From: Brachybacterium alimentarium | GTDB taxonomy: Bacteria > Actinomycetota > Actinomycetes > Actinomycetales > Dermabacteraceae | Assembly: GCF_002332425.1 (NCBI RefSeq) | Contig: NZ_NRGS01000025.1 | Span: 1-64,000, forward strand | Length of the DNA stretch: 64,000 bases | Direction of reading: 5' to 3' | Part shown: one piece after another, positions 1 through 57,002 of the stretch | How positions within the stretch are numbered: the stretch's first letter is position 1 | How the letters are laid out: the number at the start of each line of letters is the position of its first letter | Notes under the pieces: generated by a model | The model's input: only the letters and a program-made list of their open reading frames with translations | Database searches by the model: none | What the model was told of the DNA's origin: nothing | Made by a program: the position numbers and the translations under genes

Positions 1-937
1 CACCGTCAAATGCGATGAGCCACGAACGGTCAGTGCCGAGCTTGACCTGAAGGACGGCGCGGAGCAGCCGCTCGGTCAAATACCAGGCTTCTCTCAGTTG
101 GTGGTGAGGCTGAAAGCCCTGGTGGACGACCGTGCCGCGCGGCCCGGCGATGAGCCGGCCGATTTCGCTACTATCGTTGGGTATCCCCAGGCGGTCCAAC
201 TCGTCGCATAGTCCCTTCTTGTTGAAACCGGTTCCGTGCTTCTCGACCCCTAGGCAGGCGACCTCAAGTGCACCGACTAGGAGCATGAGGCCGGGTGGAG
301 TGAGGGTGTGCTCAAGCGCAGCTAGGTAACACGACAGGGCGGCCGCAGTCGCGTCATCCGGTGCGCACATCTCACTCAAGTTCTCGAGGGCGGGCGTGAC
401 GGTCTCGCGGCGAGTCACGGACTGATCGTGACAACGGACGGCGTCACTCGAGTCGATGATCGCCACCCCGTCGGGGGTGGCGACGGCAATCTGGAACGCG
501 ATAAAGCGGTTGGCGATCCGCTCGTCGAGCACGGTGATCGCGGCGGCCAAGGCCTGACGAGCGCGTCTTAGGCCCTCGGTGACGAATCCTCCGAGGTCAC
601 TCTCTGGCACCGCGCCAAGCTCGACCTCCGTGATCGTGAGAATCGTGTTCGGCCGAGTCCACAGGTCGTGGCGTGAGTAGACGATCCTTAGCGGGTCTGT
701 TGGCTCGAAGCGGGCATCCGTATAGCGGTAAGAGGCCTGTCCGGTCTGTTGATAGATCCTCGCGTCCTGTCCGATTCGGGTCACGTTCTCCAAGTCGAAC
801 AGACTAGGGATCGGGGCGCCGCTGTGGATTAACTGTGCGATCGCCTGCTGCCCCTCTACCGCGGCCGGAACAGCTTCGTCCCGGCCGGTGGGGTCAAAGG
901 GGTCTGTAGGCCACCTGGTCGTGCCGAGTTGGATCAT
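1..937 (-). CDS. HEPN-like hypothetical protein (3' end beyond window)
   Basis: An open frame of 312 codons runs from an ATG at 937 to the window edge without a stop, so the C-terminus is missing. I do not recognise the N-terminal 200 residues. The C-terminal part is helical, and residues 267-272 read RGTVVH inside GPRGTVVHQG. This is an R-X4-H motif of the kind that forms the active site of HEPN ribonucleases, including the ApeA/Abi-type HEPN proteins of phage defence. The gene uses rare TTA, CTA and ATA codons more than the chromosomal genes to the right. It lies beside a broken tnsA, which suggests transposon cargo. That it is coding is fairly sure. HEPN membership is an inference from one motif and its helical surroundings; a non-catalytic HEPN fold is equally possible. 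Confidence 0.6.
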   Translation of the reverse strand, partial: MIQLGTTRWPTDPFDPTGRDEAVPAAVEGQQAIAQLIHSGAPIPSLFDLENVTRIGQDARIYQQTGQASYRYTDARFEPTDPLRIVYSRHDLWTRPNTILTITEVELGAVPESDLGGFVTEGLRRARQALAAAITVLDERIANRFIAFQIAVATPDGVAIIDSSDAVRCHDQSVTRRETVTPALENLSEMCAPDDATAAALSCYLAALEHTLTPPGLMLLVGALEVACLGVEKHGTGFNKKGLCDELDRLGIPNDSSEIGRLIAGPRGTVVHQGFQPHHQLREAWYLTERLLRAVLQVKLGTDRSWLIAFDG

Positions 938-1121
938 GCCTAGATTATGCCCACCGCCACGAACACTTCACCTGCCCCACCCCCCGGAGATGAGTCCTAG
1001 GGAGCGCTGTACTCGGCCTCGCCACCGGAGGATCTCTGGTGACTGGCGTCAGTCACCAGGCGTGAGGCCGTAAGACGCGGTGTCCAGCGGGTTCGTCACA
1101 CCCATGGTCCTCAGCATCCTG
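938..1121. other. Intergenic DNA, no gene seen
   Basis: There is no convincing coding frame, hairpin or repeat here. It separates the HEPN-like gene from the tnsA remnant. In an intact element of this family tnsB, tnsC and tniQ would be expected at this place, so this is the likely site of their deletion. Confidence 0.5.
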
Positions 1122-1403
1122 TCAGAACTCGAAATCGGGACATAGAACACGCTCAGGACACGAAACTGAGATCCGGACACGATCATTGGTCGCGGCCCAG
1201 AACAATCCTCGGTAGCTCCGTTGGCCCCGGTAGGTCGGCGGCACTCGCACGGGTAGTCCCTCGACGATCAGATCGGCACGTGCTTGCTCCCACGTCGTCG
1301 CGACCTCGTCGCCGGCGACGGTGCAGTAGCGGAGGAACACCTCGCGTCCGCCCACACGTCCATCGTGCCCGTCTGACAGGTCGGGGAGAAATCTGACACG
1401 CAC
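1122..1403 (-). pseudogene. tnsA remnant (N-terminal fragment)
   Basis: The 93-residue frame aligns along its length with the first 80 or so residues of the intact TnsA-like protein encoded at 11001-11729. The shared features are a VA-DE/R-EV segment, a Y-GQR-Y-GLFW-AT core and a terminal DF-E/D patch. It stops just after that patch. It therefore lacks the equivalents of Asp108 and Lys124, and the segment around Glu67 is scrambled. The homology to the neighbour is visible directly. That it is non-functional follows from the missing catalytic half. It sits next to a transposon right end (1391-1447), in the same orientation and at about the same distance as the intact tnsA to its own end, so it is the residue of a second related element. 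Confidence 0.75.
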
Positions 1404-1447
1404 TGGCCAAGTAAGTGAGAACTGGCCAAGTTGGGCGAGAACCTACA
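1391..1447 (-). repeat. Right end of a decayed Tn7-like element, with TnsB-type sites
   Basis: Read inward from 1447 the sequence begins TGTAGGTTCTCGC, then GTTCTCACTTACTTGGCCA, then GCGTGTC. The intact element's right end (inward from 11822) has TGTAGGTTCCCG, GTTCCACTTATTTGGCA and GCGTGTC at nearly the same spacing. A direct repeat ACTGGCCAAGT occurs at 1402-1412 and 1421-1431. Repeated short sites behind a TGT terminus are the known layout of TnsB binding sites in Tn7-like elements. Confidence 0.65.
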
Positions 1448-1465
1448 CCACTTGTAGGTTCTCGC
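1435..1465. repeat. Two facing transposon termini separated by 5 bp
   Basis: GCGAGAACCTACA (1435-1447), CCACT (1448-1452) and TGTAGGTTCTCGC (1453-1465) form a perfect 13-bp inverted repeat around 5 bp. Each arm is a transposon terminus ending in ACA or beginning with TGT, and 5 bp is the usual target duplication length of Tn7-like transposition. The arms also match the terminus at 11822, which argues against a simple terminator hairpin. Confidence 0.7.
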
Positions 1466-1590
1466 GCGATCTGTCAGAGGTGCAGTGAGGTGACCTGCGG
1501 TGCATCTTGTGGGCAAGATGCTCAGATTCTCGCCTAGTTGTCAGAATCCTCAGGCGTGCAGTGGGATGAGGCGACCGCAGGCGTCTCGTT
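1453..1590 (+). repeat. Left end of the Tn7-like element
   Basis: It begins TGTAGGTTCTCGC. Behind the terminus two diverged copies of GTGCAGTG followed by GA/TGAGG and C-GCGG are spaced about 75 bp apart (near 1480 and 1557), each preceded by GTCAGA. Between them lies a perfect 7-bp hairpin, CATCTTG (1503-1509) and CAAGATG (1514-1520). The repeats are likely left-end TnsB sites. Confidence 0.55.
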
Positions 1591-1642
1591 GTTGTTGTGT
1601 TTCCTTCGAAGAAGGGGTCCGTAACGAGCCCTTTCCGGCGGG

Positions 1643-2245
1643 TCAAATCCAGCCGTGGGCTTTAGCGTGTTTCGCGGCGGCGTGGCGGGTGGAGACGCCG
1701 AGTTTGGTGATGGCGTCGGAGAGGTAGTTGCGGACGGTCCCCTGAGCGAGGTGCAGGTGTGTTGCGATCTCGGGGACGCTTCTACCGTCCTCTGTGAGGC
1801 GGAGGGCATCGAGTTCTCGTTCGGTGAGAGGGCAGTCGACGCTGATCGCATCAAGAGCGAGGTCAGGGTCGACATACCGTTCACCCTGGTCGATGCGTCC
1901 GACGATGGTGGAGAGCTGTTCCGCGGGAGTGTACTTCGGGACGAATCCACGGACGCCCGCAGCAAGGGCTGACCGAAGAATGCCGGGGCGGGCGTGCCGG
2001 GTGACGATCACGATCCGGCGCTGTGGATTCTCGGCGAGGAGTGCTTTGGCAGTGTCGAGCCCTCCGAGGCCGGGCATCTCCAGGTCGAGGAGGAACACGT
2101 CGGCCTCGGTGCGGGCAGGGTCCGCGAGTACGGTGTCACCGCTGGGAGCTTGGGCAATGACGGTGATGTCACCGTCGAGGTTCAGGAGTGAGGCAAGTGC
2201 TGTGCGAAGCAGCTCTTCGTCGTCGGCGAGGTAGACCCGGATCAT
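1643..2245 (-). CDS. LuxR/NarL-type response regulator
   Basis: The 200-residue protein has a receiver domain (1-115) followed by a LuxR-type helix-turn-helix (about 138-200). The receiver shows the acidic pair Asp8-Asp9, the phospho-acceptor Asp54 in FLLDLEMPG, Thr82 and Lys104. The helix-turn-helix reads PLTERELDALRL, then GTVRNYLSDAITKLG. Size and layout match DesR/LnrK-type regulators. The start overlaps the end of the upstream kinase by 4 bp, so the two are translationally coupled and form a cognate pair. The likely target is the divergent ABC transporter set starting at 3646, as in B. subtilis lnrJK-lnrLMN and similar antibiotic-response modules; this target is inferred from position. 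It lies within the transposon boundaries and is cargo. Confidence 0.88.
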   Translation of the reverse strand: MIRVYLADDEELLRTALASLLNLDGDITVIAQAPSGDTVLADPARTEADVFLLDLEMPGLGGLDTAKALLAENPQRRIVIVTRHARPGILRSALAAGVRGFVPKYTPAEQLSTIVGRIDQGERYVDPDLALDAISVDCPLTERELDALRLTEDGRSVPEIATHLHLAQGTVRNYLSDAITKLGVSTRHAAAKHAKAHGWI

Positions 2246-3375
2246 CGTGCTTCTCCTCTCGCGGCGTAGCGGGCGGTAACGGTGAAGGTATCGCCGTGAT
2301 GCCTCCAGTCGAGAGAGCCTCCGTGTTCGGCGAATCGGGTTTGCAGGCTCACGAGCCCGTTACCGCCATCCGCGGCCGTGCTGCGCTTGGCGCGGACCCC
2401 GTCGTTGGAGATCGTGACCGTGTCGGGGGCGAAGCGGATGCTGACAGTGCTGGCTGCTGAGTGGCGGAGGATGTTGCTGACACCTTCTCGAACAGCGGTC
2501 GCGACCAGCGGTTCCCAGTCACCCAGCATCGTGGGGACGGGATCGATTGTAGTGACGATGCCGGTGGTGGTGAGGAGCTGTTTGACGTTGGCGAGTTCCG
2601 TGGCGAGCGTGACCGTGCGGTAGACGTTCGCGATCTGTCGGGTCTGCGCGGAGACGTCCGCCACCAGTGCTTCGATGTCTGCGAGCTCGTGCCGGGTGGT
2701 ATTGGGCGCACGATCCAGGCTGCGGCGGGCGAGTTCGGCTTTCAACTTGATGGCGACCAGCGTGTGACCTTGTACGTCGTGTAGATCATTTGCGAAGCGA
2801 AGCCGCTCCCGAGTGACGGCGAGCTCGTTCTCGTTTGCGCGGTGGGCGTCCATGCGGGCGAAGACCACCCAGCCGAGTTCGAGGGAGAGGAACACGATGA
2901 CCTCGGCGCAGAGGAAGAGCACGGCTGCGACCTGATCGGTCAGCCATCGCTCGCCATCCAGGCGTCCGCTCACTCCGGCGATGACCGGGGCGAGAACGAT
3001 GGCGGCCGTGGCGAGCGTTGCCCAGGGCCACCATGGCCTGCGGGTAGCGATCGCGTACGCGAGAGGGAGGAACAGGGCGAAGCCCACAGCGGGAGATGCT
3101 CCAATCCACACAGCAACGCCCCATCCGAGCACGCCGATGACCGCGGTGATCTTGAGGAGCCCGAACCGCAGGTGCCGTGGCCAACGGGCACCGTTCACAC
3201 AGGTGAGTAGCCCCGCAGCTGTCGCCGTGGCAAGCGCCCCCAGGTGGAGTCCTGAGGTGAGGGCGGTGGCCGCGGTGCCGATGACTCCGAACAGAGCCGC
3301 CGTGACCACATAGGCCCAGCGGGTGAGACGTCGATAGGCGTCCAGTGAGACGTTCACGTCGAGCTTGTCTGCCAC
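2242..3375 (-). CDS. NarL-family sensor histidine kinase
   Basis: The 377-residue protein has five or six predicted membrane helices in residues 20-175 and no large extracellular loop. A HisKA_3 dimerisation domain follows, with the phosphorylated His199 in FANDLHDVQGHTL. The C-terminal HATPase has an N-box-like REGVSNILRHS and a GNGLVSLQTRFAEHGG lid/G-box. Intramembrane-sensing kinases of this shape are found in DesK- and LnrJ-like systems that sense membrane-active compounds or lipid state. It is followed, with a 4-bp overlap, by its response regulator and faces the ABC transporter genes across a 270-bp shared promoter region. The ligand cannot be told from sequence. Confidence 0.88.
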   Translation of the reverse strand: MADKLDVNVSLDAYRRLTRWAYVVTAALFGVIGTAATALTSGLHLGALATATAAGLLTCVNGARWPRHLRFGLLKITAVIGVLGWGVAVWIGASPAVGFALFLPLAYAIATRRPWWPWATLATAAIVLAPVIAGVSGRLDGERWLTDQVAAVLFLCAEVIVFLSLELGWVVFARMDAHRANENELAVTRERLRFANDLHDVQGHTLVAIKLKAELARRSLDRAPNTTRHELADIEALVADVSAQTRQIANVYRTVTLATELANVKQLLTTTGIVTTIDPVPTMLGDWEPLVATAVREGVSNILRHSAASTVSIRFAPDTVTISNDGVRAKRSTAADGGNGLVSLQTRFAEHGGSLDWRHHGDTFTVTARYAARGEAR

Positions 3376-3645
3376 CTCGCCTCACTTTCCCTTCGATCTT
3401 TTCGAGCCCGGATCCGGCCTCACCGGAACCCGGTTCCCGCCCTGCCATCAACACTCCCACAGCTGGACGAGAGGGCTGTAGTGGGCACGATCATTTCTGG
3501 ACCTGACAACTGTCATATGCCCATCGGGACCAGCGTCAGATCAGGTGGTGACCGGATGCCCTGACGTACTTTCGACAGTTTCTCGACGATGGTAAGTGAC
3601 CTCGAAAAGAGAACGCAGACCTGTTCGATGAAAGGAACACGAGCT
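3376..3645. promoter_or_regulatory. Divergent promoter region between kinase and ABC transporter
   Basis: This 270-bp gap separates two divergent transcription units and must hold both promoters. An inverted repeat TGACA-AC-TGTCA lies at 3504-3515 and is a candidate site for the response regulator. I could not fix -10/-35 boxes with confidence. Confidence 0.3.
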
Positions 3646-3936
3646 ATGAGTAAAGCCCTTAGCGGGATCCTGATCACGATTCTGACCCTGGTGCCCGCGG
3701 GCATCGCGATCGTCGTCACGATCGAGGCGGTCCGCACCGGACGCGTCGCGCTCGGCGGTGACAGCGTCGCCGACAACATCCCCGTTGACTTCTATGGCAC
3801 GTCCTCGTTCCTTCCCGCTGGCGTGCTCGACAACGCCGGATGGGTGATCGCGGCGTGCATTGTCTGGATCATCGCCGCCGCCCTTCTGGCGGGCCTGACT
3901 GTGCTGCGCCGTACGGATGCGCGGCGCACCCGATGA
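3646..3936 (+). CDS. Small two-helix membrane protein of the ABC cluster
   Basis: This is a 96-residue protein with a helix near the N-terminus (ILITILTLVPAGIAIVV), a 35-residue middle segment and a second helix near the C-terminus (WVIAACIVWIIAAALLAG), ending in a basic tail. The ATG at 3646 is chosen because an AAAGGA ribosome-binding site lies about 10 bp upstream. It is the first gene of a plus-strand operon with the ABC ATPase 17 bp downstream and the permease. I do not recognise a named family. A small accessory membrane protein in a resistance-type exporter operon is the simplest reading. Confidence 0.7.
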   Translation: MSKALSGILITILTLVPAGIAIVVTIEAVRTGRVALGGDSVADNIPVDFYGTSSFLPAGVLDNAGWVIAACIVWIIAAALLAGLTVLRRTDARRTR

Positions 3937-3953
3937 CCCGAGAGGAACACAGG

Positions 3954-4868
3954 ATGCCCACCACATCGAATACCGTCGAGGTGCAGAACCTCACCAGCAG
4001 ATACGGATCCTTCACCGCCGTCGAAGACCTCACCTTCCACGTCCGCGCCGGCGAGCTCTACGCACTGCTGGGCACCAACGGGGCGGGCAAGACCACCACC
4101 CTCGAAACCATCGAGGGACATCGCAGCCCGACCGAAGGAGCAATCACAGTGCTCGGCGGCGCACCTACGGATCGCACTGCCGTGCGTCCGCGAGTGGGGA
4201 TGATGCTCCAGGAATCCGGGTTCGCCGGAGATCTCACCGTAGAGGAGACGGTGAACCTCATCGGCCGGCTCTCCGGTCGCACCGACGACACCGCGCGTCT
4301 ACTGGAACGGGTCGACCTCGTCCGGAAACGCGACGTCCACGTCGCACAGCTCTCCGGCGGGGAGAGACGGCGGCTCGACTTCGCCACCGCCGTGTACGGG
4401 GGGCCAGAGCTGGTGTTCCTCGACGAGCCCACCAACGCGCTCGACCCGACCGCGCGTGACGCGCTCTGGGAGGTCGTGAATGAACTCCGAGCGGGTGGGA
4501 CGACGATTCTGCTCACCACGCACTACCTCGAAGAAGCAGAAGCCCACGCCGACCGCATCGGCCTCATGCATCAAGGTCGACTCGCGCACGAGGGCAGCCT
4601 CAGCGACCTCGTCGCCGCATTCCCCGCACACATCACCTTCGAGACCTCCCTGATCAACGACGACATGCCCATCGCTCCCACCCGCATCCGGGGCGAACAG
4701 GTCGTGATCGAAACCAGCGCGCTGCAACATGACCTCTACCGGCTGCTGTCCTGGGCCGACGCCAGCGCAGTCGAACTGCGGAACCTGCGTGCGAACACAT
4801 CCAGCCTCGCCGACGTGTTCCGCACCCTCTCGACCGAAACCGCCGTCACCTCGAAGGAGCCTGCATGA
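3954..4868 (+). CDS. ABC transporter ATP-binding protein
   Basis: This 304-residue ABC-2-type ATPase has Walker A GTNGAGKTT at 40-48, the signature LSGGE followed by RRRLDFA, Walker B ELVFLDEPTNALDP, and a switch histidine in LLTTHYLEEAE. A C-terminal extension of about 90 residues after the nucleotide-binding domain is typical of drug and lantibiotic exporters (CcmA/NatA class). The ATG at 3954 follows an AGAGGAA ribosome-binding site. Its stop overlaps the start of the permease by 4 bp, so the two make one transporter. Control is presumably by the divergent two-component system. Export or sensing of an antimicrobial is an inference. Confidence 0.9.
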   Translation: MPTTSNTVEVQNLTSRYGSFTAVEDLTFHVRAGELYALLGTNGAGKTTTLETIEGHRSPTEGAITVLGGAPTDRTAVRPRVGMMLQESGFAGDLTVEETVNLIGRLSGRTDDTARLLERVDLVRKRDVHVAQLSGGERRRLDFATAVYGGPELVFLDEPTNALDPTARDALWEVVNELRAGGTTILLTTHYLEEAEAHADRIGLMHQGRLAHEGSLSDLVAAFPAHITFETSLINDDMPIAPTRIRGEQVVIETSALQHDLYRLLSWADASAVELRNLRANTSSLADVFRTLSTETAVTSKEPA

Positions 4869-5572
4869 TCGCCATCGCCCGCGCGGAGACCCGGATGCTG
4901 ATCCGCAACCGGCTCGTCGCTGCCTGCGCCATCCTTGTCCCCGTTGTCTTCGCCATCATCCTCATCGCCACGCAGAACAACTTCGGCGGCAGCAGCATCG
5001 TCGCCGCCCTCCAGGTGATCGTGATCGCCGCCCTCGGCGTTTACATCACCGCCACGACAACTCTCGCGGCCCGCAGGCAGAACCTGTTCCTCAAACGCCT
5101 CCGCAGCACCACCGTCACCGATACGAGCATCCTCACCGGGCTCCTGCTCCCGATCGTGGTCATCAACATCATCCAGCTCGCTGTCATCCTCGCCGTGCTC
5201 GGCATCACCGGCACCGCACCGCAGAACATCCCCATGCTCGTCCTCGGTGTCCTCGCCGTCGAAGCCCTGTTCCTCGGGTTCGCGCTCACCACCTCCGGGC
5301 TCACCAACTCGCCCGAGCACGCCCAGGTCACAACCCTCCCGGTATTCTTCCTCACCTTCGCGGCCGCGTTCTGGATCGCGATCACCGGCACCGAAGATCT
5401 CGCCCTCATCAAGCGGCTCATCCCCGGAGGAGCCGCCGCCGAACTCATCATCGAATCCTGGAACGGCATCGACACCGGTGCGGCCGTCTCGCTGCTGCTG
5501 CCAACCCTCGCCTGGGTAGTAGTCGCCTGCGTCCTCGCCACCCAGCTCTTCAAATGGGAACCCAGACGCTGA
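4865..5572 (+). CDS. ABC-2 type transporter permease
   Basis: This 235-residue integral membrane protein has about six helices (for example residues 18-38, 50-75, 95-120, 125-150, 160-178 and 210-228) and a short cytoplasmic N-terminus ending in RMLIRNRL, as usual for ABC-2 permeases. It overlaps the ATPase gene by 4 bp (ATGA) and must be its membrane partner. It is the last gene of the operon. No peptidase or biosynthetic gene is adjacent, which fits export for self-protection rather than production. Confidence 0.87.
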   Translation: MIAIARAETRMLIRNRLVAACAILVPVVFAIILIATQNNFGGSSIVAALQVIVIAALGVYITATTTLAARRQNLFLKRLRSTTVTDTSILTGLLLPIVVINIIQLAVILAVLGITGTAPQNIPMLVLGVLAVEALFLGFALTTSGLTNSPEHAQVTTLPVFFLTFAAAFWIAITGTEDLALIKRLIPGGAAAELIIESWNGIDTGAAVSLLLPTLAWVVVACVLATQLFKWEPRR

Positions 5573-5751
5573 ACTCATGAACGGGAGTGATGCGCGATCA
5601 GGTGTCAGCTGGGGTTAGGCCGCCAGGCTGACGGTCGGATGGGACTGGTGCACGCGCAGGTGACGGTAAGAGCTTGGCCGTCACGTCGAAGCTCGGATTC
5701 CAGACTCTCCCGTTCTCGATGGGGCGATTTGCTCCGGTCAGCTCGTCGGCT
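5573..5751. other. Intergenic DNA between converging cargo and tni operons
   Basis: This 180-bp gap lies between the permease (plus) and the end of the minus-strand transposition operon. I see no gene and no strong terminator. I looked for a further TGTAGGTT terminus here, which would make the element shorter, and found none. Confidence 0.4.
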
Positions 5752-6120
5752 TCAGTGGGCGTGCGACAGGTCGATCATCGAATCGAGGCATTGAGGTGGT
5801 GTCGGGACGTTGTCGGGACCCGCGAGGTGCCAGCGTTCCAGGGTCTGCGCGAAATCGTGGTGGAGGAAAGAATGGCGAGCTCCCGAGGACAAACGTGCAT
5901 CGCTTCTGAACGTCAAACGTTTGCCACGTGGAGTGGGCCGCAGGAGCAGAGTCTCGGCTTGAACGTCTTGGAGCCACTGCTCTCCATCGATCTCGCGGTA
6001 CGGGTAGCCGTGCTCCGCAACACGTTCGCTCACCCAGCCCAGGTTCGGGAGGATCCCGAGGTCGGCCGATTGAAGTGCGATTCGTCGGAGGACCTCCAAC
6101 TCCGACTGTTGCCGGGGCAT
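5752..6120 (-). CDS. Hypothetical protein downstream of tniQ
   Basis: This is a 122-residue, mostly soluble protein with no signal peptide, cysteine pair or motif I can name. Composition and codon phase look coding, and it follows tniQ on the same strand after a 45-bp gap, so it is probably the last gene of the transposition operon or the first cargo gene. An N-terminal helical stretch (LEVLRRIALQSADLG) and a C-terminal HHDFAQTLERWHL helix are visible. It could be an element-specific accessory factor, but nothing in the sequence shows this. Confidence 0.5.
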   Translation of the reverse strand: MPRQQSELEVLRRIALQSADLGILPNLGWVSERVAEHGYPYREIDGEQWLQDVQAETLLLRPTPRGKRLTFRSDARLSSGARHSFLHHDFAQTLERWHLAGPDNVPTPPQCLDSMIDLSHAH

Positions 6121-6165
6121 GGACTGCTCCGGGAGCTTCAGGGAGTGGGATCCCGTGCCTGGTAG

Positions 6166-7914
6166 TCATGGGGGTCGCCACTCCAATGGTCCTTGATCGG
6201 GCTGCGCGGTCAGGTGGTGTAGTTCTTTGGCTGCGCGTTCGATCAGGCTGTCGACCAGTGCGTCATGCGTCCTTGAGGTGGTCCGGGCCTCGAGGGTCGC
6301 GTTGGTGCCGTAGTCGGGGTGGTAGCGGGCGTCGCCTCCCGTGTAGGACTGCCAGAGCAGAACCGCCAGTTGATTACGGTCGACCGTGATCCCGGGCGTC
6401 GCGTCGATTTCGATGCTCTGCACGGCCTGCTCGATGAGTGTCGGCTCGGCGGCCCAGCGGCGTGCGGAGTAGTCGATCGGTGGAGGGGAGTCGGCGAGTC
6501 TGGTCGCGAGGTTCTCGAGTGCTTTCAGGAGTGCCTGCCAGGTGCCGTTGCGGCGCATCCGGGTGACCAGTGCGCTGGGCGTAGTGGCGAACGCGGCGGG
6601 TAGTCCCAGGTCGAGGGCGATCAAGGACCAGGCACGTGTGCTTCCGATCTTGGCGAGCAGCATCGCGGCCGCGGCGCGGGCCGGGATGTCGTGGTCCTGG
6701 ATCCAGGGTGTGAGGGTGCCTGGCCAGAGGACCTGCGGAATCACAGCCAGTGGCACCTGCTCGAGCCAATATTGGACCTGATCGGGCCACCAGGGGATCG
6801 GTTCGGGGTAGCGGGGCATGGAGGAAGCGAGGCGGAAGGTCAGTTGCGCCGTCGGTGACAACACGTCCTCCAGAGACCGCAGGCGAATGGCTGCCAGCAG
6901 AGGATTGTGCGGCCGGCGCCGGGCTCTCGCGTCGGTCACGATAGGCGTGTGCCGGCCATTGGGATCGAGCAGTCCATGACGGTCCGCGATGTCCGCTGCG
7001 GCGTGGGCCGTCGGCTGATCGAGGACCTCGAAGGCCAGCCGCGCCGACGACAATAGGCGATCGCGCCCCGTGGCATCAGGCGCAAGGACCTGCGTGAGGT
7101 CCGAGTCCTCGTCGATCAGCTCGAAGATCGCATCCAGATGATCGCGAGCAGTCACGCCGAACCCCGCCACGTCCACAGGTTCCAGAGAATGTGCAGCGGC
7201 AGCCTCAGCGGAAGTGTGCAGCCTGTCCAACGTGTCAGCCTCCGGAGCGCCCAGCGGGGAGGTAGGCGTCTGACGAAGGTCGTAGCCGCAGCGGTTCCGG
7301 CGTCGTCGGGACGGCGGTTGCTGGCCGGTCAGTTGCGGGCAGATCCAGGGCGGAGTCGCTGCGGTCATCCAGATCGATCTGCTGAACGGCACGGCGCCGC
7401 ACTCAGGACATCGCACGAGCAGCTGTACTCCATGGGTGGGGCAGGCCGCGGGCGCGCGCCGGCGCCATGACTGGAGCCAAGTTCCTCTGCTCTCGGCCAG
7501 GCACTGCGGACAGAACCTGATGGTCGCCGCTGGTAGGCGGCCGATCCGATAGTCCATCGCATACCGCTCGAGCTCGACCTCGAGTGCCTCATGGGGTGAA
7601 AGCGCTTCATCGGCGGCGTAGGGCTGGGTGCCGAGAGCTGCTGCGAGGGCGTCGGCATGCCAGCGGAGGTAGGTCTCCAGCCGGGGGACGGATGCGTTGA
7701 CCTGGGGCAGGCCGAGCGCCGCCAGCGTGACGGCGGATGTCATGCCGTAGCGGTGAGCCACCCGCCACAGCCACGAGACCGGAAGCTCATCCGGCAATGG
7801 AGCGACCGTGATCGGCCAGCGGCTGATGTCGTAACCACCGGCCACACCCCGCAGGGGCGGGGTCGCGGACCGGCGCCGGTCAGGCCGGGAGCTCGGCGAG
7901 GCGTTGGGCCGCAT
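6166..7914 (-). CDS. tniQ: TniQ family targeting protein
   Basis: TniQ/TnsD proteins link the AAA+ protein TnsC to the target DNA in Tn7-like and Tn5053-like elements. Residues 30-60 hold the family N-terminus (SRWPITVAPLPDELPVSWLWRVAHRYG). A zinc-ribbon set follows: Cys135 and Cys138 (CPQC), Cys158 and His161, Cys169 and Cys172 (CPEC), and further cysteines at 192 and 209. The remaining 370 residues are helical and less conserved, giving 582 residues, longer than minimal TniQ (about 300-400) and closer to TnsD. It overlaps the end of tnsC by 35 bp if the start at 7914 is used. A GTG at 7845, just before the conserved region, is an equally plausible start. It presumably chooses the insertion site upstream of dnaK. 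Confidence 0.85.
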   Translation of the reverse strand: MRPNASPSSRPDRRRSATPPLRGVAGGYDISRWPITVAPLPDELPVSWLWRVAHRYGMTSAVTLAALGLPQVNASVPRLETYLRWHADALAAALGTQPYAADEALSPHEALEVELERYAMDYRIGRLPAATIRFCPQCLAESRGTWLQSWRRRAPAACPTHGVQLLVRCPECGAVPFSRSIWMTAATPPWICPQLTGQQPPSRRRRNRCGYDLRQTPTSPLGAPEADTLDRLHTSAEAAAAHSLEPVDVAGFGVTARDHLDAIFELIDEDSDLTQVLAPDATGRDRLLSSARLAFEVLDQPTAHAAADIADRHGLLDPNGRHTPIVTDARARRRPHNPLLAAIRLRSLEDVLSPTAQLTFRLASSMPRYPEPIPWWPDQVQYWLEQVPLAVIPQVLWPGTLTPWIQDHDIPARAAAAMLLAKIGSTRAWSLIALDLGLPAAFATTPSALVTRMRRNGTWQALLKALENLATRLADSPPPIDYSARRWAAEPTLIEQAVQSIEIDATPGITVDRNQLAVLLWQSYTGGDARYHPDYGTNATLEARTTSRTHDALVDSLIERAAKELHHLTAQPDQGPLEWRPP

Positions 7915-8953
7915 TGTCCGTCAACGCCGCAGTGATCACCGCGGGGGTGATGGCCTCGACTCCGGTGGTGATCGCGAGAAAGGCGGCGCGGTCGATCAGG
8001 TTCATCAACGACGCGATCCGCCCCTGGGTGCGCCGATGCAGCTCCCGCGCCTGGCTGGTCAACATGCCCGGCCCCGCGTCAGCCAGGATCAGGTGCCGCT
8101 CCAATGTCACCAGCAGATCCGTCCATGCGCGGGCGCTGTGACCGTCGCCGAAACTGAACGGTGCGACAGGGCACCGCGTGGTGCGCCGACTCGTCTGCGC
8201 ATAGACCGCAGCCTCACCCAGCAGGCCCTCGTCGAAGAACCGCTTCGCCTCCAAGTTCACACCCACGAACAGGAACGTTGCTGGCAGCACGTTGGCGAGG
8301 CCCTTGAGATGGTTGGAGACCTCAAGCCCGTTCCGATGCCGGAAGTCCACGAAGTGCAGATCATCGATGATGATCAGCTTCGTCTCGCACGTGGTCACGC
8401 AATCCATGGCCAATGACGTCAGCTGAGTACGAGTTGACCGTGACGCCCCGGGATGACCGTAGAACTCCAGCAGCTGTTGGTTCAGACCCTTCAGCGTCAC
8501 CCCCGCGTTCAGGGGCACGAACGCCACCGGTAGCCTCTGGCTGCCGTCCGGGGTCTCGGGGGAGTGGCGACGGTACTCGCGGCGGTGGACCTCCCGCGCG
8601 AACCGCGTCGCGATCGTGGTCTTGCCCAGACCCGGCTCGGCATCGATCACCGCCGCCCCGCGCAGCTTGTCCCCATCACGACGATTCGAGGCCATCACCT
8701 GCTCCAGCACATCGAACGCCCGCGCCAACTGCTGCGTCTTGATCGTCGCCGGATTCGCATTCCACACGCACCGCGCCTCGTTGTAGTCCGCCAGCACGTC
8801 CGCGTTCAACGCGCGCATCTCCGCTCGGGTGAGCACCTCGAACCGCGGCCGTGAACCGGCGTTGACGAACGCATCCCAGCCCTGTTTCCGCGAGAGCTGG
8901 TACGGCACCGTGTCATACCGGTCCAGCCACTGCGCCCACGGATTTCCGCTCAC
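7880..8953 (-). CDS. tnsC: TnsC/TniB-type AAA+ transposition ATPase
   Basis: This 357-residue AAA+ ATPase has Walker A AEPGLGKTT at 105-113 and Walker B LIIIDDLH at 193-200, followed by a long helical C-terminus. In the family, TnsC forms filaments on target DNA and passes the target signal from TniQ to the transposase. The GTG start at 8953 overlaps the stop of tnsB (GTGA), and the end overlaps tniQ, so tnsB, tnsC and tniQ are translated as a coupled set. The N-terminal 100 residues (NPWAQWLDRYD onward) are typical of the TniB branch. Confidence 0.9.
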   Translation of the reverse strand: MSGNPWAQWLDRYDTVPYQLSRKQGWDAFVNAGSRPRFEVLTRAEMRALNADVLADYNEARCVWNANPATIKTQQLARAFDVLEQVMASNRRDGDKLRGAAVIDAEPGLGKTTIATRFAREVHRREYRRHSPETPDGSQRLPVAFVPLNAGVTLKGLNQQLLEFYGHPGASRSTRTQLTSLAMDCVTTCETKLIIIDDLHFVDFRHRNGLEVSNHLKGLANVLPATFLFVGVNLEAKRFFDEGLLGEAAVYAQTSRRTTRCPVAPFSFGDGHSARAWTDLLVTLERHLILADAGPGMLTSQARELHRRTQGRIASLMNLIDRAAFLAITTGVEAITPAVITAALTDNAAQRLAELPA

Positions 8954-11004
8954 TCGTCGAACACCTCCAGCCCGTCCGCATCCGGGTGCTGTGCGTAATA
9001 CCGCGCGAACACGTCGTCGAGGTCGTCGGCCAGCTCCGGTGCGCGGGTCTTGCGGTCGCGGGCGGCCAGTAGATCGATGACTCCAGGCGCTGAGGCTGCC
9101 TCGCGCGGCTCGTGCTCGTCACGGAAGGTAGAGACGTCGTGGGCGCGGGTGGCGCTCAGTCGCCGTGCCAACGATTTCTCGCGCCGGGTGGTGACGGCGT
9201 CGTGGCTCCAGGCGTCCAGGAGGTCTTGGACGGCCTGTTTCGGGTCCACGTGGCGCTGGGATCGTAGCGCCAGGCGCTTGGTGTACTCCGCTGCTTCTCG
9301 AGAAAACGGCTGGTCCAGCGCGGGGGCGTGCTCCCACTCCAGCGGCTCGAACTGCTTCGTGTCGGGGTCCTGGAACCAGACCCGGCGCACATCATGGTGA
9401 TCGACGAAGATCGGCCACTTGCCTGCATGGGCACCTTGATGCGGCGACTTGTGGTTTCGGTGCAGGTTCAGTGCGGGACCGTCGTAGCGGCGACCGTTGA
9501 TCTCGACGCCGTAGTGCTGGACCGTGCGCCAGGCGACGTCGAGGAAGGAGAAGGCCAGATCCGCAGAGCTGGGCAGCAGTAGGCCGCCGGACTTGGCCAG
9601 GCCGATCTCGAACATCTCCGCGGGCGAGAATTCCGCGCCCGGCACCTCCGGAACACACAGTCCCTGGTGCGTGCTCTGGTGGTGGACCTGGCCGACCCAT
9701 TCGCGGATAATCTGTTCGAGTTCCGTGACGTAGTAGAACGCCTGGTCCTCGATGTCCTGGCCGCGGTTGTAGACATCGGGGCCCTTGTAGCCGGGCAGAT
9801 GTTGCAGCAGTCCCTCCCGCAGCGACTTGAAGAACCGCTCGATGGTGGGCTTATCGGTGGGTTTGTACGGGATCGCCGGCTGGATCGTGATGCCCAGCCG
9901 GGCACAGGCCGAGGTCACGTGGGAGGAGAGGTAGACCTTCCCGTGGTCGACCACGATCGCCTCGGGTAGGCAAGCCGGCAAGCCGCCCACTCGCTCCTGT
10001 GAGACCCCGTCAGGTTCCTCCGTGCCGACCAGTACGTTGCGCGGGACCCCATGGAAGGGCCACGCGCCGTCATCGTCGCCGTCCGGCTGCGGAGTCACGC
10101 ACTGGTAGAGCACGTTCGCCACGTCGGCAGCTGTGGTCGAGACCGGGGTCAGGCGTAGGCCGAGGATGCAACGGGTGAACAGGTCCTGGGCCACGGTGAG
10201 CTCGACCGGTACCCACCTCAGCGTCACCGGCTCCATCGCGAATACATCCAGCGGCGTCGTATCCAGCACCACGTATTCGCCCGGCCGCGTTGCCCGCAGC
10301 CGCCCGTACGGACCGTGAGGACGAGCAGCGACCGAGCGGCGCTGCTTCGCGCTGCCGAACGCGTGCCGCCCCTTTGAGAGCGCCTTCAGGCGCCGATACG
10401 CCGTCGTGTGAGGTGGGCAGACCACCGCGTCTGAGCCGTGCTCATCCTCGACGCGGTGACGGATCCGGTCGAGCACGACGTTCATCGTCGGCGTGGAAGC
10501 CCCGGTGTATTCATCGAGCACCGCGAGACAGGCCGCGTCCCATCGCGAATCTACTCCCGCGGAGCGCAGCCCCAGCAGCCGACTGTCGGCCAGGCCCGCG
10601 ATACCGGCCTCCCGGTAGCTCGTGAGCCAGCGCTGGACGGTGCGTTTGGACACGCCCAGCTCTGTTGCGGCCGCAGCGACCCGGTCAGCGCGGTCCGTGG
10701 CCAGCCGGGCGTCCGGGTTCTCGATCGCTTGAAGCGCCGCGGCGCGGCGTTCGAGCTGTGCACGTTGCTGCTGGGTGAGGCTTGAGAGCACGACATTACC
10801 GAGCTCCAGGCCGGCATCCTGGTCCGGCTGGACGGTGGATTCTTCGGTGACGACCCGAGCGGAAGCGGCCAGGTGATTGAGCAGGACTCGCCGCCTCGTC
10901 GAGCCACTGCTCAAAGTCGCGGTGCGCGCGCTGAGATCAACGATCTGCCACAGCTCGCCCTCGAACCACACCTGGCTCCCCACGTTCATCTCGATCACGC
11001 TCAT
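8950..11004 (-). CDS. tnsB: TnsB/TniA-type DDE transposase
   Basis: This 684-residue integrase-core transposase cuts and joins the 3' ends of the element. A helix-turn-helix (GVSKRTVQRWLTSYREAG, about 117-134) precedes the DDE core: Asp248 in YVVLDTTPLD, Asp353 in VVDHGKVYLS and Glu389 in KPTIERFFKSL. A Mu-type beta-barrel follows near residues 530-600. The ATG at 11004 is chosen because it overlaps the stop of tnsA (ATGA) and gives a conserved-looking N-terminus; reading upstream to 11082 only adds out-of-context residues. All three catalytic acids are present, so the protein should be active. Confidence 0.92.
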   Translation of the reverse strand: MSVIEMNVGSQVWFEGELWQIVDLSARTATLSSGSTRRRVLLNHLAASARVVTEESTVQPDQDAGLELGNVVLSSLTQQQRAQLERRAAALQAIENPDARLATDRADRVAAAATELGVSKRTVQRWLTSYREAGIAGLADSRLLGLRSAGVDSRWDAACLAVLDEYTGASTPTMNVVLDRIRHRVEDEHGSDAVVCPPHTTAYRRLKALSKGRHAFGSAKQRRSVAARPHGPYGRLRATRPGEYVVLDTTPLDVFAMEPVTLRWVPVELTVAQDLFTRCILGLRLTPVSTTAADVANVLYQCVTPQPDGDDDGAWPFHGVPRNVLVGTEEPDGVSQERVGGLPACLPEAIVVDHGKVYLSSHVTSACARLGITIQPAIPYKPTDKPTIERFFKSLREGLLQHLPGYKGPDVYNRGQDIEDQAFYYVTELEQIIREWVGQVHHQSTHQGLCVPEVPGAEFSPAEMFEIGLAKSGGLLLPSSADLAFSFLDVAWRTVQHYGVEINGRRYDGPALNLHRNHKSPHQGAHAGKWPIFVDHHDVRRVWFQDPDTKQFEPLEWEHAPALDQPFSREAAEYTKRLALRSQRHVDPKQAVQDLLDAWSHDAVTTRREKSLARRLSATRAHDVSTFRDEHEPREAASAPGVIDLLAARDRKTRAPELADDLDDVFARYYAQHPDADGLEVFDE

Positions 11005-11729
11005 GACGACTCCCGGATCGAGGTGATCGGGGCCCCGAGGCCGAGGGGCACGCTGAGGTCGACGGTCCAATGCCCCATCCACAGCAAGGTCATCACCGCA
11101 GCTATCTGCGCCGGGCGGGGACCTTGCCCCAGAGCCGCGCCCAGTGTCACCCCGACCTTGCCCGCTGCCCGGAGTCGGGCAAGGTCGTCAGGGTCGACGT
11201 GCCCCGGGCGTCGGCCGATCGCAAGCGTCCGGATGTTCGCCAAGCGGACCGGATCGGCGCCCGACCACACTTGATAGCGCCAGCCGCGCGTCTCGCATAC
11301 TCGCGCGGTCCAGTCGAAGACGCTGGCCACCTTCGGGCGTCGGGCAAGATCGCCGGGCTTGACGTCGACTACCTCGAGGCTGCGGTCGGCCCGCGTAAGC
11401 AAGAGATCCGGGGCATGCCGCCGGATGACTGTCCCATCGCGGCCCCGCAGCCACATGGGCTGTGCCGCGATCCAGGTCACCGTGGGGTCGAAGTCGGCCA
11501 GCCACAGCCGATCCAGTTCCAGGTGGCTCTCGTAGGGAACGTGCCCACCGGTGGTCGCCGACCAGAACAATCCGGAGTAGTGCCGCTGCCCCGCGTATGA
11601 GCCAACGCGCCGCACCGGCTGGGCGGTACTCAAAGCCGCCGCCACCGCATCGCGGACAGACGTCGTCACCTCGCGACGGTCGTCGGCGACGTAGCGAAGT
11701 TCGGTGTCCAGCAAGGTGGACCGCGCCAT
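11001..11729 (-). CDS. tnsA: TnsA-like endonuclease
   Basis: TnsA cuts the 5' strands of a Tn7-like element so that it moves by cut-and-paste. This 242-residue protein has the restriction-enzyme-like catalytic set: Glu67 in HVPYESHLELDRL, Asp108 in RRHAPDLLL and a VDVKP motif with Lys124. The C-terminal part (about 165-240) would contact TnsB and TnsC. The ATG at 11729 is preferred; upstream codons run through the transposon end and the dnaK operator region and are not coding. It is first in the minus-strand operon and sits 93 bp inside the right terminus. A broken homologue lies at 1122-1403. Confidence 0.85.
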   Translation of the reverse strand: MARSTLLDTELRYVADDRREVTTSVRDAVAAALSTAQPVRRVGSYAGQRHYSGLFWSATTGGHVPYESHLELDRLWLADFDPTVTWIAAQPMWLRGRDGTVIRRHAPDLLLTRADRSLEVVDVKPGDLARRPKVASVFDWTARVCETRGWRYQVWSGADPVRLANIRTLAIGRRPGHVDPDDLARLRAAGKVGVTLGAALGQGPRPAQIAAVMTLLWMGHWTVDLSVPLGLGAPITSIRESS

Positions 11730-11746
11730 GGATCCAGAGTGCACCG

Positions 11747-11822
11747 AGCGACACGTAAGTGGAACGCGCGACACGCGAGTGCCAAATAAGTGGAACAGCG
11801 ACAGATCAAACGGGAACCTACA
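11747..11822 (-). repeat. Right end of the Tn7-like element, TnsB-type sites
   Basis: The terminus is GAACCTACA ending at 11822. Inside it, TAAGTGGAAC occurs twice (11756-11765 and 11787-11796, 31 bp apart), each with a GCGACA block nearby. This resembles the ordered TnsB sites of Tn7 ends. The tnsA promoter must lie in or next to this end, so TnsB binding could repress its own operon, as known for Tn7; that is inference. Confidence 0.65.
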
Positions 11823-11876
11823 GCTGTGTCCTCGCTCACGACTGGCGGGAGAGGGAATGAACCGAGCCGAACCGAA
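11823..11876. other. Junction DNA between transposon and dnaK operator
   Basis: These 54 bp lie between the ACA terminus and the first HAIR box. I see no gene. The five bases after the terminus are GCTGT; the five before the left terminus are CCACT, so no target duplication is visible. Confidence 0.5.
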
Positions 11877-11961
11877 GTTGAGTCGGGTGTACTCAAGTTC
11901 AGTGCTTCTCGGATTGACAACGATCGCGATGGGTTCTCTACTTGAGTCCGTACAGCTCAAG
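11877..11961 (+). promoter_or_regulatory. dnaK promoter with two HAIR (HspR) operators
   Basis: Two copies of the HspR-associated inverted repeat (consensus CTTGAGT-N7-ACTCAAG) are present: GTTGAGT-N7-ACTCAAG at 11877-11897 and CTTGAGT-N7-GCTCAAG at 11941-11961. A TTGACA -35 box lies at 11914-11919, and TCTACT at 11937-11942 with a 17-bp spacer is the best -10, overlapping the second box. HspR bound here would block RNA polymerase. DnaK is known to act as co-repressor in actinobacteria, closing a feedback loop with hspR at the end of the cluster. Confidence 0.9.
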
Positions 11962-12036: not shown

Positions 12037-13902
12037 ATGTCCCGTGTCGTCGGAATCGACCTCGGTACCACCAACTCCGCCGTCGCCGTCCTCGAAGGCG
12101 GCCAGCCCACGGTCATCGCCAACGCCGAGGGCTCCCGCACCACCCCGTCGGTCGTGGCCTTCTCCAAGCAGGGCGAGGTCCTCGTCGGCGAGGTCGCCAA
12201 GCGCCAGGCCGTCACCAACGTCGACCGCACCATCGCCTCCGTGAAGCGCCACATGGGCACTGAGTGGAGCCAGGAGATCGACGAGAAGAAGTACACCGCG
12301 CAGGAGATCTCCGCCCGTACCCTCGGCAAGCTCAAGAAGGACGCCGAGTCCTACCTGGGCGAGGCCGTGACGGACGCGGTCATCACCGTTCCCGCCTACT
12401 TCTCGGACTCCGAGCGTCAGGCCACGAAGGACGCCGGCACCATCGCGGGCCTCAACGTCCTGCGCATCATCAACGAGCCCACCGCGGCGGCCCTGGCCTA
12501 CGGCCTCGAGAAGGGCAAGGACGACGAGCAGATCCTCGTCTTCGACCTCGGCGGCGGCACCTTCGACGTCTCCCTGCTTGAGGTGAGCAAGGACGACGAG
12601 GGCTCCACGATCCAGGTCCAGTCCACCGCGGGCGACAACCGCCTCGGCGGCGACGACTGGGACCAGAAGATCGTCGACTGGCTGATCTCTCAGGTGAAGA
12701 ACAAGGAGGGCGTGGATCTGTCCAAGGACCGCATCGCTCTCCAGCGCCTCAAGGAGGCCGCTGAGCAGGCGAAGAAGGAGCTGAGCTCCTCGACCTCCAC
12801 CTCGATCTCGCTGCAGTACCTGTCGATGACCGAGAACGGCCCCCTGCACCTGGACGAGAAGCTCACCCGTGCCCAGTTCGAGGACATGACCTCGGATCTG
12901 CTCGAGCGCACCAAGGCTCCGTTCCACCAGGTCATCAAGGATGCGGGCGTCTCCGTCTCCGACATCGACCACGTGATCCTCGTGGGCGGCTCGACCCGCA
13001 TGCCCGCGGTCACCGAGGTCGTGAAGTCGCTGACCGGCGGCAAGGAGCCCAACAAGAGCGTCAACCCCGATGAGGTCGTCGCTGTGGGCGCTGCGCTGCA
13101 GGCCGCCGTCATCAAGGGGGAGCGCAAGGACGTCCTGCTCATGGACGTCACCCCGCTCTCCCTCGGCATCGAGACCAAGGGCGGCGTGATGACCAAGCTC
13201 ATCGAGCGCAACGCGGCCATCCCGACCAAGACCTCCGAGGTGTTCTCCACCGCCGAGGACAACCAGCCCTCCGTGGCGATCCAGGTGTTCCAGGGCGAGC
13301 GTCAGTTCACCCGGGACAACAAGATGCTCGGCACCTTCGAGCTGACCGGCATCGCCCCGGCTCCCCGCGGCATCCCGCAGGTCGAGGTCACCTTCGACAT
13401 CGACTCCAACGGCATCGTGCACGTGACCGCGAAGGACCGCGGCACCGGCAACGAGCAGTCCATCCAGATCACCGGCGGCTCCGCCCTGTCTGACGAGGAC
13501 ATCGACCGCATGGTGAAGGACGCCGAGGCCCACGCCGCCGAGGACGAGGAGCGTCGCAAGAACGCCGACGCCCGCAACACCCTCGAGCAGCTCGTCTACC
13601 AGGGCGAGAAGCTGCTCAAGGACAACGCGGAGAAGGTCTCGGACGCGGACAAGACCAAGGCCGAGGACGCCATCAAGGAGTCCAAGGACGAGCTGGCCAA
13701 GGAGGATGCCTCGACCGAGGACCTCGAGGCCAAGCGCGACACCCTGAACGAGGCTCTGCAGGCCGTGGGCACCGCGATCTACTCGCAGGCCGAGGAGGGT
13801 GCCGAGGGCGCCTCCGAGGGCGAGACGGGCGAGGGCTCGTCGTCGGACGATGACGACGTGGTCGACGCCGAGATCGTGGACGAGGACGAGGAGACCAAGT
13901 GA
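12037..13902 (+). CDS. dnaK: Molecular chaperone DnaK (Hsp70)
   Basis: This is a 621-residue Hsp70. The nucleotide-binding domain (1-365) starts with GIDLGTTNS and contains the phosphate loop [10 protein letters not shown] and the adenosine motif [10 protein letters not shown]. The substrate-binding domain and lid follow, with the linker [18 protein letters not shown]. The C-terminus ends in a long acidic, Ser/Gly-rich tail ([26 protein letters not shown]). Length is normal for actinobacteria. The ATG at 12037 is preceded by AAAGGCAGG. Its stop overlaps the grpE start, so the pair is coupled. It is controlled by the two HAIR boxes upstream and works with GrpE and DnaJ in folding. Confidence 0.98.
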
Positions 13903-56981: not shown

Positions 56982-57002
56982 GTTGAGCGGAATAGACTCA
57001 AC
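56982..57002 (+). promoter_or_regulatory. HAIR operator of clpB
   Basis: GTTGAGC-N7-ACTCAAC fits the HspR consensus (CTTGAGT-N7-ACTCAAG) except at the outer positions. It lies 154 bp before the clpB start and places clpB in the HspR regulon with dnaK. Confidence 0.85.

Follow-up and report, generated by a model that had tools for sequence, protein, structure and literature searches.

A Tn7-like transposon lies directly upstream of dnaK in Brachybacterium alimentarium, and this locus raises the question of which chromosomal feature was recognised there and by which protein. The DNA analysed, hereafter the window, is a stretch of 64,000 nucleotides at the beginning of contig NZ_NRGS01000025.1 (assembly GCF_002332425.1). 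Positions 1453-11822 code for TnsA, TnsB, TnsC and TniQ, all on the minus strand and with overlapping reading frames (Table 1). The first-pass annotation had described these genes, including a long TniQ, between Tn7-type ends upstream of dnaK; genes, profiles and ends agree with this description, and affiliation of the element to the Tn7-like family is secure. Pfam profiles matched across the transposition genes were TniB, AAA_22, TniQ and Mu-transpos_C. TnsA stayed under its Pfam cut-off (22.5 vs 26.5 bits) and scored 208 bits against the NCBIfam model TnsA_like_Actin, far over the cut-off of 110 bits; an HMM search of this genome with PF08722 gave no match, the controls likewise being without match. 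Catalytic residues previously listed for TnsA (E67, D108, K124) and TnsB (D248, D353, E389) proved exact, and TnsC carries the expected Walker A and Walker B stretches. Inverted TGT/ACA ends are present, and agreement of their first 23 positions at 19 was reproduced. Ends of the type GACA/GCCA-n13-CCTACA recur in relatives.

The cargo consists of a two-component system and an ABC transporter, the ATPase of which has a drrA-like model as top NCBIfam match, under the cut-off of that model. G+C content is 65.8% in the element vs 70.3% in the 10 kb starting at dnaK. No cas effector model from Pfam, NCBIfam or PADLOC matched the four cargo proteins (1643-5572) or a 312-aa open frame of the neighbouring element (2-937), this frame being without any match to the three collections, and PADLOC matches of TniQ were TniQ models.

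Table 1. Features of the element and of its surroundings in the window
Feature	Position	Strand	Evidence or remark
dnaK-side end of neighbouring tandem Tn7-like element, runs off contig	1-1447	-	sequence; partner end at C5:589251
Right end GCCA-n13-CCTACA of neighbouring element	1425-1447	-	directly left of 1453
CCACT between the two elements, 5 bp	1448-1452	.	sequence
Left terminus TGTAGGTTCTCGCGCGATCTGTC	1453-1475	+	19/23 positions same as right terminus
Cargo: LuxR-type response regulator	1643-2245	-	Pfam Response_reg and GerE
Cargo: HisKA_3 sensor kinase	2242-3375	-	Pfam HisKA_3
Cargo: ABC transporter ATPase, likely start 3954	3840-4868	+	Pfam ABC_tran
Cargo: ABC-2 membrane protein	4865-5572	+	Pfam ABC2_membrane_3, marginally under cut-off
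tniQ, 582 aa, proposed HAIR-reading target selector	6166-7914	-	Pfam TniQ (PF06527) 1.7e-16
tnsC, AAA+ regulator	7880-8953	-	Pfam TniB, AAA_22; PDB match VchTnsC 1.6e-6
tnsB, DDE transposase	8950-11004	-	profile and catalytic residues
tnsA, endonuclease	11001-11729	-	NCBIfam NF033179 1e-61; catalytic residues
Right terminus GACA-n13-CCTACA	11800-11822	-	end motif
GCTGT, target duplication of whole array	11823-11827	.	second copy just before C5:589027 of this genome (G000)
GGGAAT, presumed sigma-H-type -35 box of dnaK	11853-11858	+	sequence
HAIR1, HspR operator, proposed landmark	11878-11896	+	core TTGAGT-n7-ACTCAA, zero mismatch
HAIR2, second HspR operator	11942-11960	+	1 mismatch
dnaK	12037-13902	+	name from sequence; protein 94-97% identical in relatives
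HAIR upstream of clpB-like gene (57156-59837)	56983-57001	+	1 mismatch

The element had been called complete. Its four genes and both ends bear this out, but the word needs qualifying because the island runs beyond the left end of the contig. A matching 5-bp duplication is absent around the pair of ends at 1453 and 11822 (CCACT vs GCTGT). Copies of the left terminus number three in the whole genome, one at window position 1453, the others about 1 kb from the end of contig C5. Before the outer C5 copy (589027) stands the GCTGT that follows position 11822, and before the inner one (589251) the CCACT that follows the right end of the neighbouring element. In each of the 10 genomes of the genus compared, blocks of the C5 left flank have matches ahead of dnaK, at variable distance. 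On the simplest reading of these sequences, 1453-11822 would be the dnaK-side member of a tandem array, running from GCTGT and C5:589027 across a contig gap to 11822, GCTGT and dnaK, and the array would hold an inner element duplicated at CCACT.

Matched 5-bp duplications were found in four cases: GCTGT of this array, GATGT on both outer ends of the island of G003, ACAGT flanking the dnaK-side unit of G008 (one base being common to the neighbouring end) and AGGGA of L092, the only convincing case when 29 loci were screened for a left end carrying an identical 5-bp sequence, the available flank often stopping short of the expected place. The G008 element (C1:4374347-4405251, L036-L038) is chimeric, with identities to the window proteins of 44% for TnsA, 53% for TnsB, 94% for TnsC and 86% for TniQ, and its TnsC is interrupted near the 3' end by an insertion of about 19 kb. 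In Kineosphaera limosa, two divergent elements (L087 and L097) share a single contig, and the right end of the distal one is followed by 5 bp and then by another left end, again an array at dnaK.

Related genomes were searched for the same element at the same place and for an empty site, as had been proposed in the first-pass annotation. A dnaK query matched all 38 genomes of the genus, three of them (G015, G031, G032) with short matches only, and the DNA upstream of dnaK was examined in the remaining 35. A perfect GAACCTACA end lies 55-56 bp from HAIR1 in seven (G000, G002, G003, G006, G008, G023, G036). In five others (G014, G020, G028, G033, G037), the end 50-62 bp from HAIR1 has 1-2 mismatches and may be decayed; by the same rule, 23 of the 35 have no end at the site. 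Relatives carrying the same kind of element beside dnaK, as well as relatives without a recognisable end there, do exist. G036 yielded TnsA and a portion of TnsB only, and no transposase gene was seen by tblastn in 20 kb of G002, the TnsB query of that search not being valid. A TniQ profile built on three sequences and run on 396 genomes of the order matched 12, three of them of this genus. Seven genomes beyond the genus have an element directly adjoining dnaK in unchanged orientation, but these loci recur among the named loci described below and are therefore not extra evidence. The match in G260 lies on a contig too short for a site call, and that in G365 is weak, with a different gene order and no dnaK within 20 kb.

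A TnsC profile run on named genomes gave 69 loci, at which the gene on the TnsA side was labelled by tblastn with DnaK, ClpB and Lon as queries. The target was dnaK at 26 loci, including Ornithinimicrobium, Mycolicibacterium, Georgenia, Cellulomonas, Knoellia and Brachybacterium paraconglomeratum, lon at four (Micropruina, Nocardia flavorosea and two Gordonia) and clpB at three, all from Nesterenkonia. L112 was scored as lon, dnaK lying 3.7 kb further on. The names Lon and ClpB of neighbour genes are our assumption, made by reading the sequences. The dnaK promoter, suggested earlier as a new attachment site, recurs in relatives, and the sites at lon and clpB widen this reading: because relatives sit at these genes too, the shared feature is HAIR, the operator of HspR. 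According to a passage of PMC8223512, HspR represses the dnaK operon via HAIR and controls clpB as well; a passage of PMC9775585, together with the title of its reference 21, places lon in the HAIR/HspR regulon, and the same source, in the part consulted, gives the HAIR consensus as CTTGAGT-n7-ACTCAAG.

In the window, the right end of the element is 55 bp before HAIR1; its position ahead of the dnaK operators had been recognised correctly, the distance having been put at 54 bp. We take GGGAAT to be a sigma-H-type -35 box. Distances were scored at 39 sites (six genomes of the genus and 33 named loci) with the end rule GACA/GCCA-n13-CCTACA, G036 (55 bp) being placed by a separate end call. From element end to HAIR they were not rigid, spanning 52-61 bp, with 55 or 56 bp at 29 of the 39 sites; from end to start codon they ranged from about 87 to 305 bp over the same sites. 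The labels dnaK, lon and clpB were picked after HAIR had been noticed in the flanks, and the promoters of these genes carry HAIR by nature, so that the evidence lies in the distance and not in the presence of the operator. Among 29 control elements away from the three genes (five of them with at most 57 bp of flank), none had, 45-65 bp beyond its end, a HAIR-like sequence with at most 3 mismatches; no end was found in a 30th, L134. In the genome of the window, no element end adjoins the HAIR upstream of the clpB-like gene, and HAIR alone may therefore not suffice. A GTG-n8-CAC motif at the insertion point, seemingly conserved within the genus, was not conserved in other genera and was rejected as a candidate.

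We consider it probable that these elements form a Tn7-like actinobacterial family in which a TnsD-type TniQ reads HAIR while TnsA and TnsB insert about 55 bp upstream. TniQ would recognise the operator in heat-shock promoters and, once bound, would recruit TnsC, and TnsA/TnsB would then insert the element in one orientation. With the insertion point just beyond the promoter, the gene would stay intact, and since HAIR is conserved and present at dnaK, lon and clpB, one recognition function would serve several sites. Repeat insertion at a single site would build tandem arrays. The sigma-H promoter had at first been favoured as landmark, TniQ reading the -35 GGGAA with its spacer, or other promoter bases, and HAIR being carried along. 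GGGAA is found 27-36 bp from the end at the scored non-mycobacterial sites, inside the span protected by TnsD at attTn7, and since -35 box and HAIR stand in fixed register at most sites, the two are indistinguishable there. This candidate was dropped on five mycobacterial loci (L081, L082, L088, L089, L120), in which GGGAA/GGAA is shifted by about 17 bp, to 12-15 bp from the end, and HAIR is still at 54-57 bp; the decoupling is seen in a single clade of TniQ, and the lon elements of the two Gordonia are almost copies of each other. A HAIR-anchored alignment of 34 sites showed only the HAIR block and GGAA as well shared, the latter out of register in mycobacteria. As the sigma-H box moves while the HAIR distance is kept, HAIR is the most likely landmark, with TniQ as its probable reader, and reading of the promoter appears quite improbable.

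We infer that TniQ would be the reader, touching HAIR DNA directly. Its TniQ domain covers residues 34-165 of 582 and leaves a long C-terminal extension, as TnsD-type selectors have; the association of a long TniQ with a fixed site, put forward in the first-pass annotation, holds in relatives. An AlphaFold2 model of the protein (pLDDT 74.5, pTM 0.54) was weakly like CAST TniQs in Foldseek, with best matches at E 0.06-0.19 and none at 0.001, and no MerR-like or HspR-like fold was detected in this moderate model by Foldseek against the PDB. TniQ could also dock on HspR protein bound to HAIR, in which case the host repressor would be the true guide. Docking would equally give a near-constant distance and these three genes, and HAIR would be conserved since HspR needs it, but the long C-terminal part shared with TnsD-type selectors argues for a DNA reader, as does TnsD, which binds its own DNA directly according to the part of PMC2918618 consulted; we regard docking as rather unlikely. 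The site may also not be actively chosen, an old insertion before dnaK having been inherited or swapped by homologous recombination. Elements do recombine, as seen in the G008 unit (TnsA/TnsB 44%/53% vs TnsC/TniQ 94%/86% identity to those of the window), yet 5-bp duplications differ between hosts, sites without recognisable end occur in the same genus, the first 30 bp beside the element are poorly conserved and insertions are also found at lon and clpB, which makes simple inheritance hardly credible. Coming back to HAIR reading by TniQ, a more tentative extension is that TniQ competes with HspR at HAIR or uses it: the regulon (dnaK, lon, clpB) would then define where the element can insert, and release of HspR from HAIR under heat shock might act as a switch for insertion, in either direction.

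A TniQ tree of 59 rows was built by a quick method, long branches being flagged; it omits 12 of the 69 loci (no, split or short TniQ) and seven order loci repeating named ones. TniQs of the lon type stand at three points; three changes of label are required for lon, two of them forced by starred branches. The single clpB-type TniQ is sister to a Brevibacterium pair, one of which is of the dnaK type. These scattered placements suggest that the target gene changed while the landmark was kept. Separate groups are made by 17 rows with large TniQ and by seven short-TniQ rows of the Rhodococcus group; the latter is nested in the HAIR-type part of the tree, and loss or change of site therefore occurs too. 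Another group unites three rows with DnaA boxes beside the element and two from Arthrobacter castelli. TniQ matched 147 plasmid records, only four of these matches, with 25-28% identity, spanning 80% or more of the protein, and plasmids carry TnsC relatives at 65-67% identity.

Scatter of the same family over unrelated sites had been named beforehand as an observation that would speak against a fixed target. The wider TnsC family does lie elsewhere, 36 of the 69 loci adjoining none of dnaK, lon and clpB, but nearly all readable elements at other sites have a TniQ of different size or on a separate tree branch. Eight of the 36 have a short TniQ (L083-L086, L090, L091, L137, L145) and 19 have TniQ frames of mostly about 760-1140 aa (L142 being cut, 279 aa); three lie beside DnaA-box-rich DNA, four have no TnsA side on the contig (L095, L098, L117, L119), L146 shows neither TnsA nor TniQ in the available stretch, and L087 shares its contig with another element that adjoins dnaK. 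The three sister elements beside DnaA-box-like DNA come from Arthrobacter (L113), a record named Sporosarcina (L114) and Psychromicrobium (L121); within 700 bp and with at most one mismatch, 12, 14 and 5 DnaA boxes were counted, vs 0 each in L083, L102 and L122, a hint of a second site, either operator-type or origin-like. Four elements with very large TniQ (L125, L126, L129, L144; frames of about 980-1130 aa) have ends adjoining the apparent 3' end of NlpC/P60 genes, a name with which Pfam agreed for L126 and L144, the two that were run.

In common with Tn7 and its TnsD-attTn7 pathway, the window family has TnsA/B/C with a TniQ-domain selector, TGT...ACA ends, a 5-bp duplication, a fixed orientation and insertion close to a conserved gene, with a set spacing to the recognised sequence. 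However, attTn7 is coding sequence (the 3' end of glmS) without inverted repeats for an oligomer, as described in part of PMC2918618, whereas the putative landmark here is an inverted-repeat promoter operator, with the element inserted ahead of the gene. TnsD protects attTn7 from +23 to +58 relative to the insertion point (same source and extent). By this count, HAIR1 begins at about +53, at the outer edge of the protected interval, and extends further out, so that the selector would need a slightly longer reach than TnsD. The Actinobacteria-dominated Tn7-like clade of Benler et al. 2021 (PMC8649781) is probably the same broad clade; the sections consulted call it experimentally uncharacterised, and the main text mentions neither dnaK nor heat shock. 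The Rhodococcus-group elements resemble that of the window in TnsC (65-67% identity) and type of right end, but differ by a short TniQ (216-314 aa), varied flanks, plasmid relatives and the lack of HAIR at the end; they are possibly Tn7706 as presented in part of PMC12915292. One of them, from Rhodococcus zopfii (L090:14384-16252), carries a DnaK relative of 53% identity on its cargo side.

Att sites reported for Tn7-like elements, as far as the portion of PMC11406308 consulted goes, are glmS, yhiN, comM, parE, tRNA genes, guaC, yciA, ffs and rsmJ, dnaK being absent from that text and lon and clpB from the portion consulted; reuse of a conserved chromosomal site is shared with the elements studied here. 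A literature search, covering sources other than subscription journals and supplements, found no Tn7-like element at dnaK or HAIR among the papers listed, and so far as this search shows, the attachment site represents a new class. The safe sites reviewed in the same portion of PMC11406308 are sequences of genes or RNA genes, while the constraint here appears to be a transcription-factor operator, which would explain how a single selector family works at three unrelated target genes across many genera of actinobacteria. Mobile DNA that tracks a regulon is suggested by this distribution, and heat shock may be linked to transposition. It also points to a tool for protein-guided integration in actinobacteria, at a defined position that would leave the adjoining gene undisrupted.
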